NCBI GenBank assembly: GCA_022827625.1
Contig: JAJEIE010000010.1
Span: 1 to 62,689, forward strand
Origin: Candidatus Poribacteria bacterium
GTDB taxonomy: Bacteria > Poribacteria > WGA-4E > WGA-3G
DNA: 62,689 bases
Direction: 5' to 3'
In this document: positions 14,075 to 37,242 of the stretch, in pieces
Layout of the letters: each line of letters begins with the position of its first letter
Numbering within the stretch: the stretch's first letter is position 1
Notes under the pieces: generated by a model
The model's database searches: none
The model's input: the letters and a program-made list of their open reading frames with translations, nothing else
Told to the model about the DNA's origin: nothing
Position numbers and translations under genes: made by a program

Positions 14075-14782
14075 TTATGTTCCTTTTCGCACTTCATAGC
14101 CGAGTTCTATGACCTTCGCGATTAACAGTTCCGGTGCAAAGTCGTCGAGGGGATCTCGTGGATTGTCTTCGGCTTCCAGCGACATCGCCTCGACCGCCTC
14201 TTGTGCGGTGACGTAGTTGATACCGATATAGTCTTGAGTCGTTGAGACGTTCTTGTGTCCGAGTAGCTCTTTGACAAGATAGATGTCGTTACATTGTTGG
14301 TATAATCTCTGGGCAAACGTCTTGCGCATTGTGTGCGTGGCGAGTTTACCGTTGAGTTCGGCAGCCGAAAACGCATCATCAAGGATCGTGTGAACTGCCT
14401 GGCGTTTCATTGCTATCAGTTTGCCTTTTTTCCGCTTCCGAGAAGGGAAGAGCGGATGGTCGTCTGGCAGTTCCCCGAAGATACCGAACGCGCCACGATT
14501 CCACGCGATAATCTCCTCAATCGCCTTGCGTCCATCGGTGTTAACAGGGATCGTCCGAGCGGTTTCCCCACCCTTGACGATAGATTTATCAAACTGGAAA
14601 CTCGTCACAGGCTGCCCATTCTGCCATACATCGCCCGCGGTGAGGGCGAGCAGTTCGCTCACCCTCCCACCGATCGACACACCGAGCATGAACAGACCGC
14701 GGTTGCGTTGTGCGAAGGCACCCGTGAAGGCATCCCGCACTTTGCGGATTTCATCATTCGTTAGAGGGCGTGTGCCTTTCAT
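14075..14782 (-). CDS. Tyrosine recombinase (catalytic domain only)
   Basis: This 235-residue protein starts at ATG 14782 behind AGGAG. The catalytic set is intact: Arg40 (GGRVSELLAL), His150 and Arg153 (ATHTMRKTF), His176 (LLGHKN) and Tyr185 (TTQDYIGI). It lacks the ~100-residue N-terminal core-binding domain of most integrases, so it is a minimal enzyme. It could integrate the element, resolve multimers of a plasmid form, or invert DNA. It is the last gene of the RadC operon. Confidence 0.9.
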   Translation of the reverse strand: MKGTRPLTNDEIRKVRDAFTGAFAQRNRGLFMLGVSIGGRVSELLALTAGDVWQNGQPVTSFQFDKSIVKGGETARTIPVNTDGRKAIEEIIAWNRGAFGIFGELPDDHPLFPSRKRKKGKLIAMKRQAVHTILDDAFSAAELNGKLATHTMRKTFAQRLYQQCNDIYLVKELLGHKNVSTTQDYIGINYVTAQEAVEAMSLEAEDNPRDPLDDFAPELLIAKVIELGYEVRKGT

Positions 14783-15057: not shown

Positions 15058-15167
15058 TTTCATATTTCCTTTCGTTTGTTGGTTTGTGAGTTGCTTTCTG
15101 GTATATCAAATGAGACACCAGAATCCGTTTGTTGGTAGGTGCGATTTCCTAACCGCACCATCGTTTG

Positions 15168-15305: not shown

Positions 15306-15380
15306 AATAAACCTCCGTCTGTTGGTTTGTTGGTTTGTGAGTGCCAATCCCCCACATCGGGAATTGGGTCACTGCGGCAT

Positions 15381-15406
15381 GGGAAACGCCCCGAAGGACG
15401 CTTCCC
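15381..15406 (-). promoter_or_regulatory. Intercistronic cUUCGg hairpin 1
   Basis: On the minus-strand RNA, GGGAAGCGUCC pairs over 11 bases (two G-U) with GGGCGUUUCCC around a UUCG loop closed by C-G. It begins 12 bases after the stop of the gene at 15418. Confidence 0.75.
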
Positions 15407-15417
15407 CGTTTGTTGGT

Positions 15418-15585
15418 TTACTCAACCGCCTTTTTCAAAAATGCCATCGCCTGTCCCACCAGTGAAGCCAACGGCAAGCGATAACTTTCCCTGCCTTCTA
15501 CCTGCAACTCTGCAATCGCTATCTCAATATGGTTTTTCGCCTTACGAAGTTGCTCAATGCGTGCCGTGCGTTCTGCTTTCGTCAT
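15418..15585 (-). CDS. Small helical protein
   Basis: The start at 15585 (MTKAERTARIEQLRKAKNHI) is preferred over 15699 because the longer version has no ribosome site; GGGG lies upstream of 15585. The 55 residues are an amphipathic helix followed by YRLPLASLVGQAMAFLKKAV. Function unknown. Confidence 0.55.
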   Translation of the reverse strand: MTKAERTARIEQLRKAKNHIEIAIAELQVEGRESYRLPLASLVGQAMAFLKKAVE

Positions 15586-15749
15586 CGTTCTATCCCCGTG
15601 TCTGATGTTTCCGTTTGTGTTCCGATTGACGCGGTTATAGTAGGGTGGAGAAACGGGCGCGATTGTGCCGTGTCGGTCTCGGAGTCCTTTTTTCGCCATT
15701 CTGTAAGTATCGGGGACGCGTCGCCACGCCCCCGCTCCGTTAGAAGATG

Positions 15750-15773
15750 GGACGCGCCCCGAAGGACGCGCCC
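15750..15773 (-). promoter_or_regulatory. Intercistronic UUCG hairpin 2 with covarying stem
   Basis: On the minus-strand RNA, GGGCGCGUCC pairs with GGGCGCGUCC over ten bases around UUCG. The stem sequence differs from hairpin 1 yet pairing is kept, which argues for an RNA structure. It starts 6 bases after the RadC stop at 15780. Confidence 0.75.
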
Positions 15774-15779
15774 GTTGGG

Positions 15780-16832
15780 TTAGATAAAATTTTCTTCTTT
15801 CAGACTTACAAAAATCCCATCTCCGATAATCACATGGTCAAGGACTTTTATCCCTATCTGGTTACCTGCCTCAATCAACTGCTTCGTCGCCCTGATGTCC
15901 TCTTGGCTCGGCTGTGGGTCGCCTGATGGGTGATTGTGAGCAAGGATAACCGAGTTCGCGGCTTCCTGAATTGCGAACCTGAATATCTCGCGGGGGTGGA
16001 ATACACTGGAATTCAGCGTTCCCTCAAAAACCTTGTCAACCGCAAGCATTTTGCCCCACTTCAATTCTTTTGCGTCCTCGCCTGCCTTGCCCGCACTGGT
16101 CACACCGCCTTTCGTGTCAAGAGCAAGCACGACAACAATTTCTTTCTGAAGATACCGCATTTTTGACATCAGCAAGTCGGCAACATCTGACGGACTCGTA
16201 ACCTTCTCCCGTTCTGCGTGGAAACGCGCAAGTCGCTTGCCAATTTCAAACACGGACGCTAACCGCTCGGATCGCGTTTCTCCGATGCCCTTGATTTTGC
16301 CCAATTCCCGCGCCGAACTGCCCGCCATCTGCTTCAAATTGCCGTCATAGGCTGTTAAGACTTCCTCCGCTACCGATAAAGGCGTTCCAAGCACTTTCGC
16401 AAACAATTCGGTGTCTGATAGCGCGTCAATGGGTCGCTTGAGACTGCTTGCCAATGCCTTCGTGCGTTGCCACTGCTGCGCGTGCGTTCCGACTAACGCC
16501 TTACGCTCGGCTTCGGCTTTCGCTTTCGCTTCGGTTTCCTGTTCTTCGGGTGTTCCGTTCACGAGTTCAACGAACCAGTCTGGAGAGATAGGCTTTAGCG
16601 TCTTTTCAACGAATACGGCACGCTCCAAAGTCTCAAGTTCCATCGCTGTGTCGTCCGAGAAGTGGACTACGATTTCATCATCGCCCTGTCCGCCTTCTTC
16701 GTCTATCTCATGGAAACCTGTAAATTTCTCAATTCGGATTATCTGCTTGTCTCCGTCCGTCATCACGCAACCGACCGCAAAATCTCCGTCAAAATGCTTG
16801 TCTAAATAGTCTTGTGAGAGTTCAATTCTCAT
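15780..16832 (-). CDS. radC: RadC family JAMM-domain protein, long form
   Basis: This 350-residue protein has a unique N-terminal ~115 residues, then a helix-hairpin-helix (~178-191, LGKIKGIGETRSERL), then the RadC/JAB1-MPN domain. The metal motif is complete: His299, His301, Ser309 and Asp312 in HNHPSGDPQPSQED. The ending LDHVIIGDGIFVSLKEENF is typical. RadC proteins are common on phages, plasmids and integrative elements; their activity is still unclear, with DNA repair and anti-restriction proposed. A second copy lies two genes upstream. Confidence 0.92.
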   Translation of the reverse strand: MRIELSQDYLDKHFDGDFAVGCVMTDGDKQIIRIEKFTGFHEIDEEGGQGDDEIVVHFSDDTAMELETLERAVFVEKTLKPISPDWFVELVNGTPEEQETEAKAKAEAERKALVGTHAQQWQRTKALASSLKRPIDALSDTELFAKVLGTPLSVAEEVLTAYDGNLKQMAGSSARELGKIKGIGETRSERLASVFEIGKRLARFHAEREKVTSPSDVADLLMSKMRYLQKEIVVVLALDTKGGVTSAGKAGEDAKELKWGKMLAVDKVFEGTLNSSVFHPREIFRFAIQEAANSVILAHNHPSGDPQPSQEDIRATKQLIEAGNQIGIKVLDHVIIGDGIFVSLKEENFI

Positions 16833-16896
16833 GTTTCGGTAACTCCTATAAGTTGGGGTTAAAAATCTCCCAGACTCTCTGGGGTTACCGCTGGTA

Positions 16897-16922
16897 GGGA
16901 AACGCCCCGAAGGACGCTTCCC
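16897..16922 (-). promoter_or_regulatory. Intercistronic cUUCGg hairpin 3
   Basis: Same 26-base core as hairpin 1, beginning 26 bases after the stop of the gene at 16948 and before the long RadC gene. Confidence 0.75.
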
Positions 16923-16947
16923 TTTGCGTTTGTGGGTTGTGCGAATG

Positions 16948-17166
16948 CTACAGCGTTTCTATAAAATCGCGCGCCTGTTCGCATTCGTCAATCGTGCGAA
17001 ACTGGATTTTCTTCACACGTTCAGCGAGTTGAAGGTGGAGGAAATATCCCTGACTCTCATCAGTGTATAACTCGCTCGTGATTTCACACGATGCAATCTT
17101 CGTGCGGTCAAGTGTGATGCCGTTAATTCGTATCCAACGGCTCTTTGGAATTGCTCTTAATTCCAT
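16948..17166 (-). CDS. Hypothetical small beta-rich protein
   Basis: This 72-residue protein starts at ATG 17166 with GGAGAT upstream. It has alternating strands (WIRINGITLDRTKIASCEIT) and a final helix (ECEQARDFIETL), the plan of a small PH-like or bacterial ORC-like fold. It lies between the two RadC genes, with hairpins on both sides. Function unknown. Confidence 0.65.
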   Translation of the reverse strand: MELRAIPKSRWIRINGITLDRTKIASCEITSELYTDESQGYFLHLQLAERVKKIQFRTIDECEQARDFIETL

Positions 17167-17241
17167 TCTTTTCTATCTCCTTTTGTTAAGGGTTTGAATA
17201 TCCACGCTCCCATCACGCGGGAATTGTGGTTACTGCCGCAT

Positions 17242-17267
17242 GGGAAACGCCCCGAAGGACGCTTCCC
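17242..17267 (-). promoter_or_regulatory. Intercistronic cUUCGg hairpin 4
   Basis: Same 26-base core as hairpins 1 and 3, 17 bases after the stop of the short RadC gene. The flanking ~20 bases also match hairpin 1 (ACTGC-x-GCAT). Confidence 0.75.
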
Positions 17268-17283
17268 CGTGCTTGCTGGTCGG

Positions 17284-17946
17284 TTAGATAAAGTTTTCTT
17301 CCTTCATAGAAACGAAAACCCCGTCACCGATGATGATATGGTCTAACACCTTGATACCTATTTCCTTACCCACTTCCACCAATCTTTGTGTCTCCTTGAT
17401 GTCCGCTTGGCTCGGTGTGGGGTCGCCTGATGGGTGGTTGTGAACGAGTATAACCGAGTTCGCTCCCTCCTCAACGGCAAACCTGAAAATCTCGCGCGGG
17501 TGGAAAGTAACGTCGTTTAGCGTCCCCTTGAAAATGGTAGACTCGCCTAACACTTTGCCCCACTTGACATCCTCCGAACCTTCGCCCGCCTTGCCTGTGC
17601 TGATGATACCGCCTTTTGTATCCAACGCCAACGCTACAACGATTTGCTGTTCCAAGTGTCGCATTTTCGGCAGCATCACATCGGAAACATCGGCAGGACA
17701 TAGCAACTTCGGACGCTTCGCTTGGACTTCAGAACATGCCGCGCGTCTGCCTAACTCAAAGACTGCCCGAATTGCCCCTTCCGCTTCATCGTCCATGCCA
17801 CAGGTTAGATTTTTCACGGTGCTATTGAAGGCTCGCGTCAAGTTGCCCGCGTGTGCTGTGATAGCGACATCGGCATCGCCTAAGGATATATCAAACGCTT
17901 CTGCGTAAAGTTCCGTGTTTGAGAGTTTGCATAACTTCTGAGTCAT
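17284..17946 (-). CDS. radC: RadC family JAMM-domain protein, short form
   Basis: This 220-residue protein starts at ATG 17946 with GGAG upstream. The JAMM metal set is present: His169, His171, Ser179 and Asp182 in HNHPSGDPTPSQAD. From residue ~85 it aligns closely with the long RadC (KMRHLEQQIVVALALDTKGG, TFHPREIFRFAVEEGANSVI, same last residues MKEENFI), but the N-terminal ~85 residues are reduced and the helix-hairpin-helix is not recognisable. A gene duplication with divergence of the DNA-binding part is the simplest reading. Confidence 0.9.
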   Translation of the reverse strand: MTQKLCKLSNTELYAEAFDISLGDADVAITAHAGNLTRAFNSTVKNLTCGMDDEAEGAIRAVFELGRRAACSEVQAKRPKLLCPADVSDVMLPKMRHLEQQIVVALALDTKGGIISTGKAGEGSEDVKWGKVLGESTIFKGTLNDVTFHPREIFRFAVEEGANSVILVHNHPSGDPTPSQADIKETQRLVEVGKEIGIKVLDHIIIGDGVFVSMKEENFI

Positions 17947-18038
17947 GATAAAATAATCTCCTTATGGATTGGCACGGGATCAACGCCCGCGCTTTTCTAT
18001 ATTCCACCGAATACGAAATCGGTGGGTTACTGCTGCAT

Positions 18039-18065
18039 GGGAAACGCCCAAACTGGACGCTTCCC
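18039..18065 (-). promoter_or_regulatory. Intercistronic hairpin 5, loop variant
   Basis: The same 11-base stem as hairpin 1, but the loop is AGUUU instead of UUCG. The flank ACTGC-x-GCAT is retained. Confidence 0.65.
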
Positions 18066-18081
18066 GATAGTGTTATGGATT

Positions 18082-18104
18082 GGCACGGGAAAACGCCCCG
18101 TGCC
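18082..18104 (-). promoter_or_regulatory. Intercistronic hairpin 6
   Basis: GGCACGGG (18082-18089) and CCCGTGCC (18097-18104) form a perfect eight-base stem, 9 bases after the stop of the gene at 18113. Confidence 0.65.
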
Positions 18105-18545: not shown

Positions 18546-18626
18546 GTTGTATCTCCTGTTAAAAGAAAAGGACGCTCCAAAAGGTGCGTCCAACGTGTTG
18601 GCAAATATTCATATTATCCTGCCCCT

Positions 18627-18655
18627 ATCATACCACAGAATGCCCATTTTGTCAA
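18627..18655 (-). promoter_or_regulatory. Sigma-70 promoter of the RadC-recombinase operon
   Basis: Minus strand: TTGACA (18655-18650), a 17-base spacer, TATGAT (18632-18627). All genes from 18545 down to 14075 point the same way. Confidence 0.88.
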
Positions 18656-21651: not shown

Positions 21652-22034
21652 TGTTAGCATAAATTCTCAGTTTGTGCTACATTTAAAGACAGTACAGTGT
21701 TGCCCACACCGCACTGTCAAGCGAACTTTTTTCGTAGAGGCTGGGCAGTCTCGTTGACGAAAAAAGCACGCACAAAATCTGCATACCACTCACACCGCAT
21801 CCGCACCTTCGGGGAAGTTTAGCGACCTCGAAGGTGAAGCGGTTCCCACCTAAGTGATGTGCGGATACGGATAAAACGTGAAACGGTACGTAGTAGCCGA
21901 TACAAATATCGGTTCCTTCTTAACTCAAAGAAGTTTAAACCTGATAGGAGCAGGATTTTCCCCAGCGATCGCACGGTTTCTTTGACAACAAAAAAAATAG
22001 CATCATCCCCCCATTGCAGGAGAATGACGCTATT
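21652..22034 (+). ncRNA. Candidate structured non-coding RNA
   Basis: A chain of stems follows the promoter at 21615: GACAGT with ACTGTC (about 21688-21718), CTTTTTTCGT with ACGAAAAAAG (21726-21766), nested ATCCGCAC with GTGCGGAT and ACCTTCG with CGAAGGT (about 21799-21866), CCGATA with TATCGG (about 21898-21913), and AATAGC with GCTATT (about 21997-22034). No convincing gene overlaps it. The ends are not defined and I do not recognise a known RNA family. Confidence 0.45.
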
Positions 22035-22065
22035 TCACTGCGCGGATATAGCGCAAAAAAAACTG

Positions 22066-37190: not shown

Positions 37191-37242
37191 GTCGTTACGA
37201 GGTCGTTACGAGGTCGTAACGACCCTGTTACGACCTCGTAAC
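37191..37242. repeat. Palindromic repeat cluster before the terminator
   Basis: GTTACGAGGTCGTAAC (37205-37220) and GTTACGACCTCGTAAC (37227-37242) form a perfect 16-base inverted repeat around a 6-base loop. An extra GTCGTTACGAG (37191-37201) gives a second tandem half-site. Confidence 0.9.

Follow-up and report, generated by a model that had tools for sequence, protein, structure and literature searches.

The window, by which we mean the whole 62,689-nucleotide Poribacteria contig JAJEIE010000010.1, has matches to a terminase, a portal and a major head protein and also encodes ParA and an integrase. A minus-strand messenger runs from a promoter-like site at 18655–18627 to 14075 and includes two small genes, radC1, a small gene, radC2, a 93-aa gene, further small genes and the integrase gene (Table 1). 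The leader hairpin ahead of the first gene is not reported by the terminator scan, which has a loop limit of 8, and an analogous leader hairpin is present in the related element G020:C85 (GGACGCUCCCGCGCGGAGCGUCUUUUUUU). Two classes of hairpin recur in this and related operons, and we defined them after looking at the data: class A hairpins have a GNRA loop and lie between the Shine-Dalgarno sequence (SD) and the start codon, while class B hairpins have UNCG loops, mostly UUCG, and usually lie 6–25 nt past a stop codon with the SD of the next gene further downstream. Weaker stems at 17972–17992 and 18004–18025 can also be read from the window sequence.

Table 1. Features of the minus-strand operon in the window, listed from the promoter-like site onward
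Feature	Position	Strand	Remarks
Promoter-like site TTGACA-17-TATGAT	18627..18655	-	Ahead of operon; 11/12 consensus matches, consensus match only
Terminator-like leader hairpin GGACGC/GCGUCC, then UUUUCUUUU	18561..18591	-	Between promoter and first gene; read from sequence
Small gene, 70 aa	18333..18545	-	Homologues in G020:C11 and G031:C8
Small gene, 72 aa	18113..18331	-	Homologues in four elements
Hairpin GGCACGGG/CCCGUGCC, larger loop	18082..18104	-	9 nt past stop
11-pair variant of the 26-mer, loop AGUUU for UUCG	18039..18065	-	Hairpin scan
Hairpin GCGCGGG/CCCGUGC, third class	17972..17992	-	Precedes radC1; kept ahead of radC in other elements; read from sequence
radC1, RadC-like JAB protein, 220 aa	17284..17946	-	Pfam PF04002, E 3.6e-39
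Class B hairpin, UUCG, 11 pairs	17242..17267	-	Exact 26-mer copy
Small gene, 72 aa	16948..17166	-	Matches no family
Class B hairpin, UUCG, 12 pairs	16896..16923	-	26-mer copy at 16897-16922
radC2, RadC-like JAB protein, 350 aa	15780..16832	-	Pfam PF04002, E 2.1e-40
Class B hairpin GGGCGCGUCC/GGGCGCGUCC, UUCG, 10 pairs	15750..15773	-	7 nt past radC2 stop
SD-like GGAG	15735..15738	-	Abuts class A hairpin on 5' side
Class A hairpin, GCGA loop, 10 pairs	15711..15734	-	Between GGAG and start codon 15699; 11 nt spacer
Gene behind class A hairpin, 93 aa	15418..15699	-	Start less certain
Class B hairpin, UUCG, 11 pairs	15381..15406	-	12 nt past stop; 26-mer copy
Further intercistronic hairpin CCAAUUCCC/GGGGAUUGG	15344..15367	-	Hairpin scan
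Further intercistronic hairpin GGUGCGGUU/AAUCGCACC	15138..15159	-	9 nt past stop
Tyrosine integrase	14075..14782	-	Pfam PF00589; ordinary SD in window

A sequence-only reading of this stretch had placed six hairpins after stop codons on the RNA strand of the operon, and all six lie where it put them, at about 12, 7, 25, 17, 48 and 9 nt past the stop for the hairpins at 15381, 15750, 16897, 17242, 18039 and 18082, respectively, the last two following one and the same stop. Its three copies of a 26-base core are exact: GGGAAGCGUCC-UUCG-GGGCGUUUCCC occurs exactly three times on the minus strand (15381–15406, 16897–16922 and 17242–17267), with 0 copies expected in shuffles, and the hairpin copies in the window have about 43 nt in common, 3' flank included. 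The relative at 15750–15773 retains pairing as claimed, with a 10-pair stem and the UUCG core, and each of the four UUCG hairpins contains two G-U pairs that pair on the minus-strand RNA only. The remaining two are correctly placed but differ in form, the one at 18039 carrying AGUUU and the one at 18082 a different stem and no tetraloop. Absent from the list of six were the GNRA hairpin at 15711–15734, the stems at 15138–15159 and 15344–15367, and the two weaker stems mentioned above. Across the gaps of the window, 13 sense hairpins were found versus approximately 0.8 in shuffled gaps; those with UNCG loops number four on the sense strand and none on the antisense strand.

We count no fewer than nine phage-like or plasmid elements with such hairpins in sponge-associated Poribacteria. 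The same operon is found in G020:C85 (70 kb, with a Rep3 initiator and ParA), G020:C11 (69 kb), G031:C8 and G194:C51 (WTGF01000045.1; 70 kb, 420x coverage, filed under Chloroflexi), and three operon-bearing contigs have identical ends of 44–55 nt, as in circular contigs. A pattern search identified the further elements G017:C3, G054:C121 and G048:C87. Of the terminase-bearing relatives G006:C178, G004:C177 and G029:C82, the latter two have no hairpin enrichment, and the feature therefore does not simply follow the terminase. The sequence of the 15750 hairpin recurs in G020:C11 and G020:C85. Among 194 genomes, the exact 26-mer occurs on this contig alone, and it had no match in IMG/VR, because that stem is lineage-specific; searches with shorter cores and structure did find relatives. 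The RadC protein used as bait in IMG/VR also gave no match. Hits of an exact 19-mer in IMG/VR, G194:C51 aside, were mostly lone hairpins without neighbours and were rejected as chance or ordinary palindromes. Rfam covariance models matched nothing in the window at the gathering threshold and nothing in the operon at E values up to 1. The UUCG core and the GNRA stem pattern occur on element contigs only, in one orientation per contig, which is that of the operon, and a UNCG or GNRA hairpin within 30 nt before the start codon precedes 31 element genes versus 0/439 chromosomal genes.

Loop class and position are linked. After most UNCG hairpins come 18–28 nt containing an SD and then the start codon, and among the hairpins 17–30 nt before a start (n = 13), the loop is UNCG in 11 and an SD intervenes before the start in 10. 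GNRA hairpins mostly lie a few nucleotides before the start without an SD in between, and their stems are abutted on the 5' side by GAGG, AAGG or GGAG. In a strict set, the near-start hairpins are GNRA in 18/18 cases, an SD falls within a 13-nt window reaching the stem in 18/18 versus 65/506 (13%) in the background, and the stem-to-start spacer contains an SD in 0/18. If the hairpin is removed, the SD-start spacing becomes 7–14 nt with a median of 9 nt; that of ordinary genes is mostly 5–9 nt. It is this overlooked GNRA class, between SD and start, that carries the strongest functional signal. The rule has exceptions, as the hairpins at G017:C3:31177 and G054:C121:40550 are GNRA hairpins ahead of an SD.

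A loop-blind detector (SD, then a stem of 7 or more pairs closed by any loop of four bases, a start codon 3–13 nt on and an open frame) reported 30 GNRA sites, no UNCG site and 2 others across 562 kb of element sequence, the 30 sites not being independent because the elements are related and the hairpins partly copied. The same detector found 0 GNRA sites in 1.2 Mb of chromosomal sequence including chromosomal radC loci, and shuffles with the frame test omitted yielded means of 0.0 GNRA and 0.75 other sites. Up to nine class A sites are present in one 20-kb contig, while the window itself has one only, scored at E 4.5e-6 by covariance model R1. Most sites found with this model were also in its training set; the model's new finds, in G034:C103 and G037:C535, have SD and start in place, and weaker matches (E 0.002–0.01) were set aside, being mostly without a strong GNRA hairpin. 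Predicted folding gives the hairpin a probability of 0.98–1.00 in 30/30 sites, and partial pairing of the SD is predicted at many sites (unpaired probability 0.02–0.88). Many class A stems lie about 3–20 nt past an upstream stop.

Class A genes lack an SD close to their start codons, so that these starts could be misassigned, and our home-made gene caller left 10/30 of them uncalled. However, five class A genes have an in-frame stop just 3–21 nt upstream of the start and thus cannot begin before the hairpin, and almost none of the class A genes has a downstream alternative start with an SD. The integrase of G020:C85 aligns from residue 1 with its SD-bearing relatives. The start of the class A gene in the window is less certain because the gene lacks homologues and the 90 nt upstream contain no in-frame stop.

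Pairing is conserved beyond what was used for selection. When tetraloops in gaps between codirectional genes of eight elements were chosen on their four inner pairs only and the next four pairs then checked, the outer pairs formed on the sense strand in 60/60 cells for UNCG, 93/96 for GNRA and 96/204 for other loops; the antisense strand had no UNCG hairpin and two GNRA hairpins, with 3/8 outer pairs formed. In class A stems most positions vary, yet pairing is kept in 98.9% of cells versus 69% in shuffles, and the covariation score is 0.849 versus 0.286 in shuffles, the inner four pairs being part of the selection and the outer pairs not; a set of 26 sequences likewise shows conserved pairing. 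At the junction behind radC, the stems of G020:C11 and G031:C8 differ by an A-U/C-G exchange at one pair, the GCGA loop and the flanks being unchanged, and the stem of G194:C51 at that junction is a different one. A different stem again (CGGGAGCGA/UCGCUCCCG, loop GCAA) occupies the class A position in G006:C178 and G034:C103. An ordinary SD precedes the integrase gene of the window and three of its copies in other elements; two further element copies show no obvious SD, and the copy in G020:C85 has a split site. Scatter regardless of gene ends or strand and a lack of conserved pairing, either of which would count against RNA-level, gene-end-bound and strand-specific hairpins as proposed from the sequence alone, were both looked for; the outcome favours the proposal, which is supported in eight elements.

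With hairpin positions, strand, loop classes, covariation and restriction to elements as observed here, we favor a model in which the hairpins are RNA structures of a polycistronic messenger, class A hairpins forming part of split ribosome-binding sites and class B hairpins acting as stop-proximal insulators or stabilizers, and we put the probability of this model at roughly two in three. In class A, the order is SD, a hairpin of 8–10 pairs, 4–12 nt and the start codon; the 30S would accept the folded hairpin as looped out, as in T4 gene 25, and the SD would thereby be brought from about 30–37 nt to 7–14 nt from the start. Since the hairpin would be needed to bring the SD near the start, translation of class A genes should depend on folding, and an SD lying under a ribosome terminating upstream would suit reinitiation. 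A class B stem at its usual distance of 6–12 nt past the stop would, judged by the extent of the footprint of a terminating ribosome, begin approximately where that footprint ends and need not be melted; such a hairpin would insulate or stabilize the junction and shorten the effective gap between cistrons, and its function may be insulation, stabilization or processing. Going further, we tentatively speculate, with the odds somewhat against us, that split sites are standard in this element lineage as part of a positional code in which GNRA belongs inside the initiation complex and UNCG after the stop, that GNRA loops may contact the 30S, and that melting could switch off the genes of a set together.

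Intercistronic hairpins elsewhere are thought to define messenger decay segments, and the strongest competing explanation is that class B hairpins are 3' stabilizers or processing sites of this kind, unrelated to translation. Their stop-proximal position, extreme stability and occurrence on the sense strand only agree with this, as do similar CUUCGG hairpins between T4 genes, and we give it a substantial chance, a little below even; however, it leaves class A unexplained. Alternatively, the gaps might have been invaded by short mobile palindromes comparable to REP/BIME or mitochondrial GC clusters, folding just making an insertion between SD and start harmless. Near-identical copies within one operon and between elements, the shared stretch of the window copies that extends into the 3' flank, and integrase gene relatives with and without a hairpin, as insertion would give, are in line with such spread, and the mobile repeat suggested by the sequence-only reading may describe an origin. 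As a full explanation we consider it unlikely: it does not account for the strict sense orientation, for the fixed position relative to stop, SD and start with loop class going with position, or for different stems at the same place in different lineages, and the sampled chromosomes hold no copies.

Recruitment of a protein, also suggested from the sequence alone, would make the hairpins binding sites through which an RNA-binding protein, encoded by the element or the host, controls the whole operon jointly. Proteins are known to recognize UNCG and GNRA caps, and one operon has many copies, but this idea is weakened to the point of being improbable by stem sequences that vary widely and change from element to element while loop class and position are retained, by the presence of two loop classes, and by the lack of any RNA-binding Pfam family among the operon genes scanned. 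Finally, we reject a role as transcription terminators or attenuators as very improbable despite the stable G+C-rich stems and the U run of the leader hairpin that separates promoter and first gene, for no U run follows the hairpins noted here, none of these is listed by a terminator scan that finds no more sites than shuffles, no class B hairpin is terminator-like, and the genes behind the hairpins belong to the same operon.

To our knowledge, split ribosome-binding sites are documented in a handful of genes only. The class A sites provide a natural sequence set for asking how the 30S copes with a stem-loop that separates SD from start and why such loops are GNRA rather than UNCG. Programs that expect the SD right before the start codon will place these genes wrongly or overlook them, as happened with our own caller at a third of the element sites (10/30).

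Both hairpin forms have precedents in phage T4, and the statement of the sequence-only reading that no such family had been described therefore does not stand. Intercistronic CUUCGG hairpins of T4 were reportedly described by Tuerk and colleagues in 1988, and we found more than 10 intergenic CUUCGG hairpins on the messenger strand in 109 kb of T4 sequence. Class B hairpins are likewise intergenic, located on the messenger strand and capped by C(UUCG)G; in contrast to T4, their stems are longer and G+C-rich, with 9–12 pairs and conserved G-U pairs, differ in sequence, and are concentrated in one operon at a regular distance from the stop codon. Split ribosome-binding sites in T4 genes 25 and 38 were reported by Nivinskas in 1999 and by Malys and Nivinskas in 2009 and are reviewed in PMC3014915. 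When the minimum stem was lowered to 6 pairs to suit an AT-rich genome, our detector found genes 25 and 38, and nothing else, in the 109 kb of T4. In these known split sites the spacing is reduced from 27 to 11 nt and from 22 to 5 nt, respectively, and in gene 25 the 30S accepts a folded hairpin between SD and start (PMC3014915). Class A sites, with the SD 5' and the start 3' of the hairpin, a working spacing and conserved pairing, have the features of split sites and are putatively of this type, the hairpin giving a usable distance of 7–14 nt here; unlike in T4, there are about 30 sites in nine elements of an uncultured phylum, which are unrelated to T4, and the loops are GNRA and not AGUU and UUCG, gene 38 having a UUCG loop inside the ribosome-binding site as an exception to the loop rule. 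The E. coli thrS split site and standby modules, as cited in PMC3936740, are comparable with class B in having a hairpin near the SD with single-stranded flanks, but as far as that citation goes thrS is an autoregulated 5' leader whereas class B is a simple gene-junction hairpin. REP/BIME sequences are also short intergenic palindromes in several copies, but the hairpins here are sense-only, limited to elements and not chromosomal, and placed relative to stop, SD and start. What is new with respect to T4 is that split sites are this numerous and concentrated in one operon, and that loop class is tied to position.

The two radC paralogues of the operon lie in tandem (15780-16832 and 17284-17946), with 54% identity between their proteins and 74% identity between their DNA sequences over a 253-nt stretch. 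In five elements the radC genes are preceded by a hairpin of a third class, whose arms GGCGCGGG and CCCGCGCC enclose a loop of roughly 7-10 nt. Immediately 3' of three hairpins in the window operon we also observed a conserved three-codon frame, AUG-CNG-CAG-UAA/UGA, which a pattern search among the loci examined placed in the window contig only.

Features in the window and in related elements
Feature	Position	Strand	Remark
Third-class hairpin	window 17972-17992		also upstream of radC in loci L064 (contig G020:C85), L065, L066 and L108 (WTGF01000045.1)
Three-codon frame	window 15364-15380, 17225-17241, 18022-18038	minus	directly behind hairpins
Promoter-like site and leader with terminator-like hairpin and U run	window 18561-18655		hairpin lies between promoter-like site and first operon gene
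Terminator-like hairpin and U run in leader	L064 13810-13832		
Long inverted repeat	window 37200-37242		17 pairs; outside operon
Long inverted repeat	window 21994-22036		20 pairs; outside operon
Detector site, non-GNRA loop	G020:C11 17193-17212		different operon
Detector site, non-GNRA loop	G194:C51 27466-27485		different operon

The leader hairpins, which in the window and in G020:C85 alike separate the promoter-like site from the first operon gene, might serve attenuation or antitermination. At the only two sites in elements where the scan for an SD, a hairpin with any four-base loop and a start codon returned a loop other than GNRA, AAGGAGGTGAA is followed by GGGUAGGU-CGCC-ACCUACCC, with the start codon 4 nt further.

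WTGF01000045.1, a 70-kb contig with the Poribacteria-type operon and 420x coverage, belongs to a MAG filed as Chloroflexi; it is probably misbinned or a high-copy element. Finally, we note that relatives of the terminase occur in multiple copies per genome (L134 and L149 on G045:C1; loci of genomes G039 and G043), and that in these loci the match is interrupted near query residues 210-237 within a single open frame of about 640 aa, making an insertion such as an intein possible.
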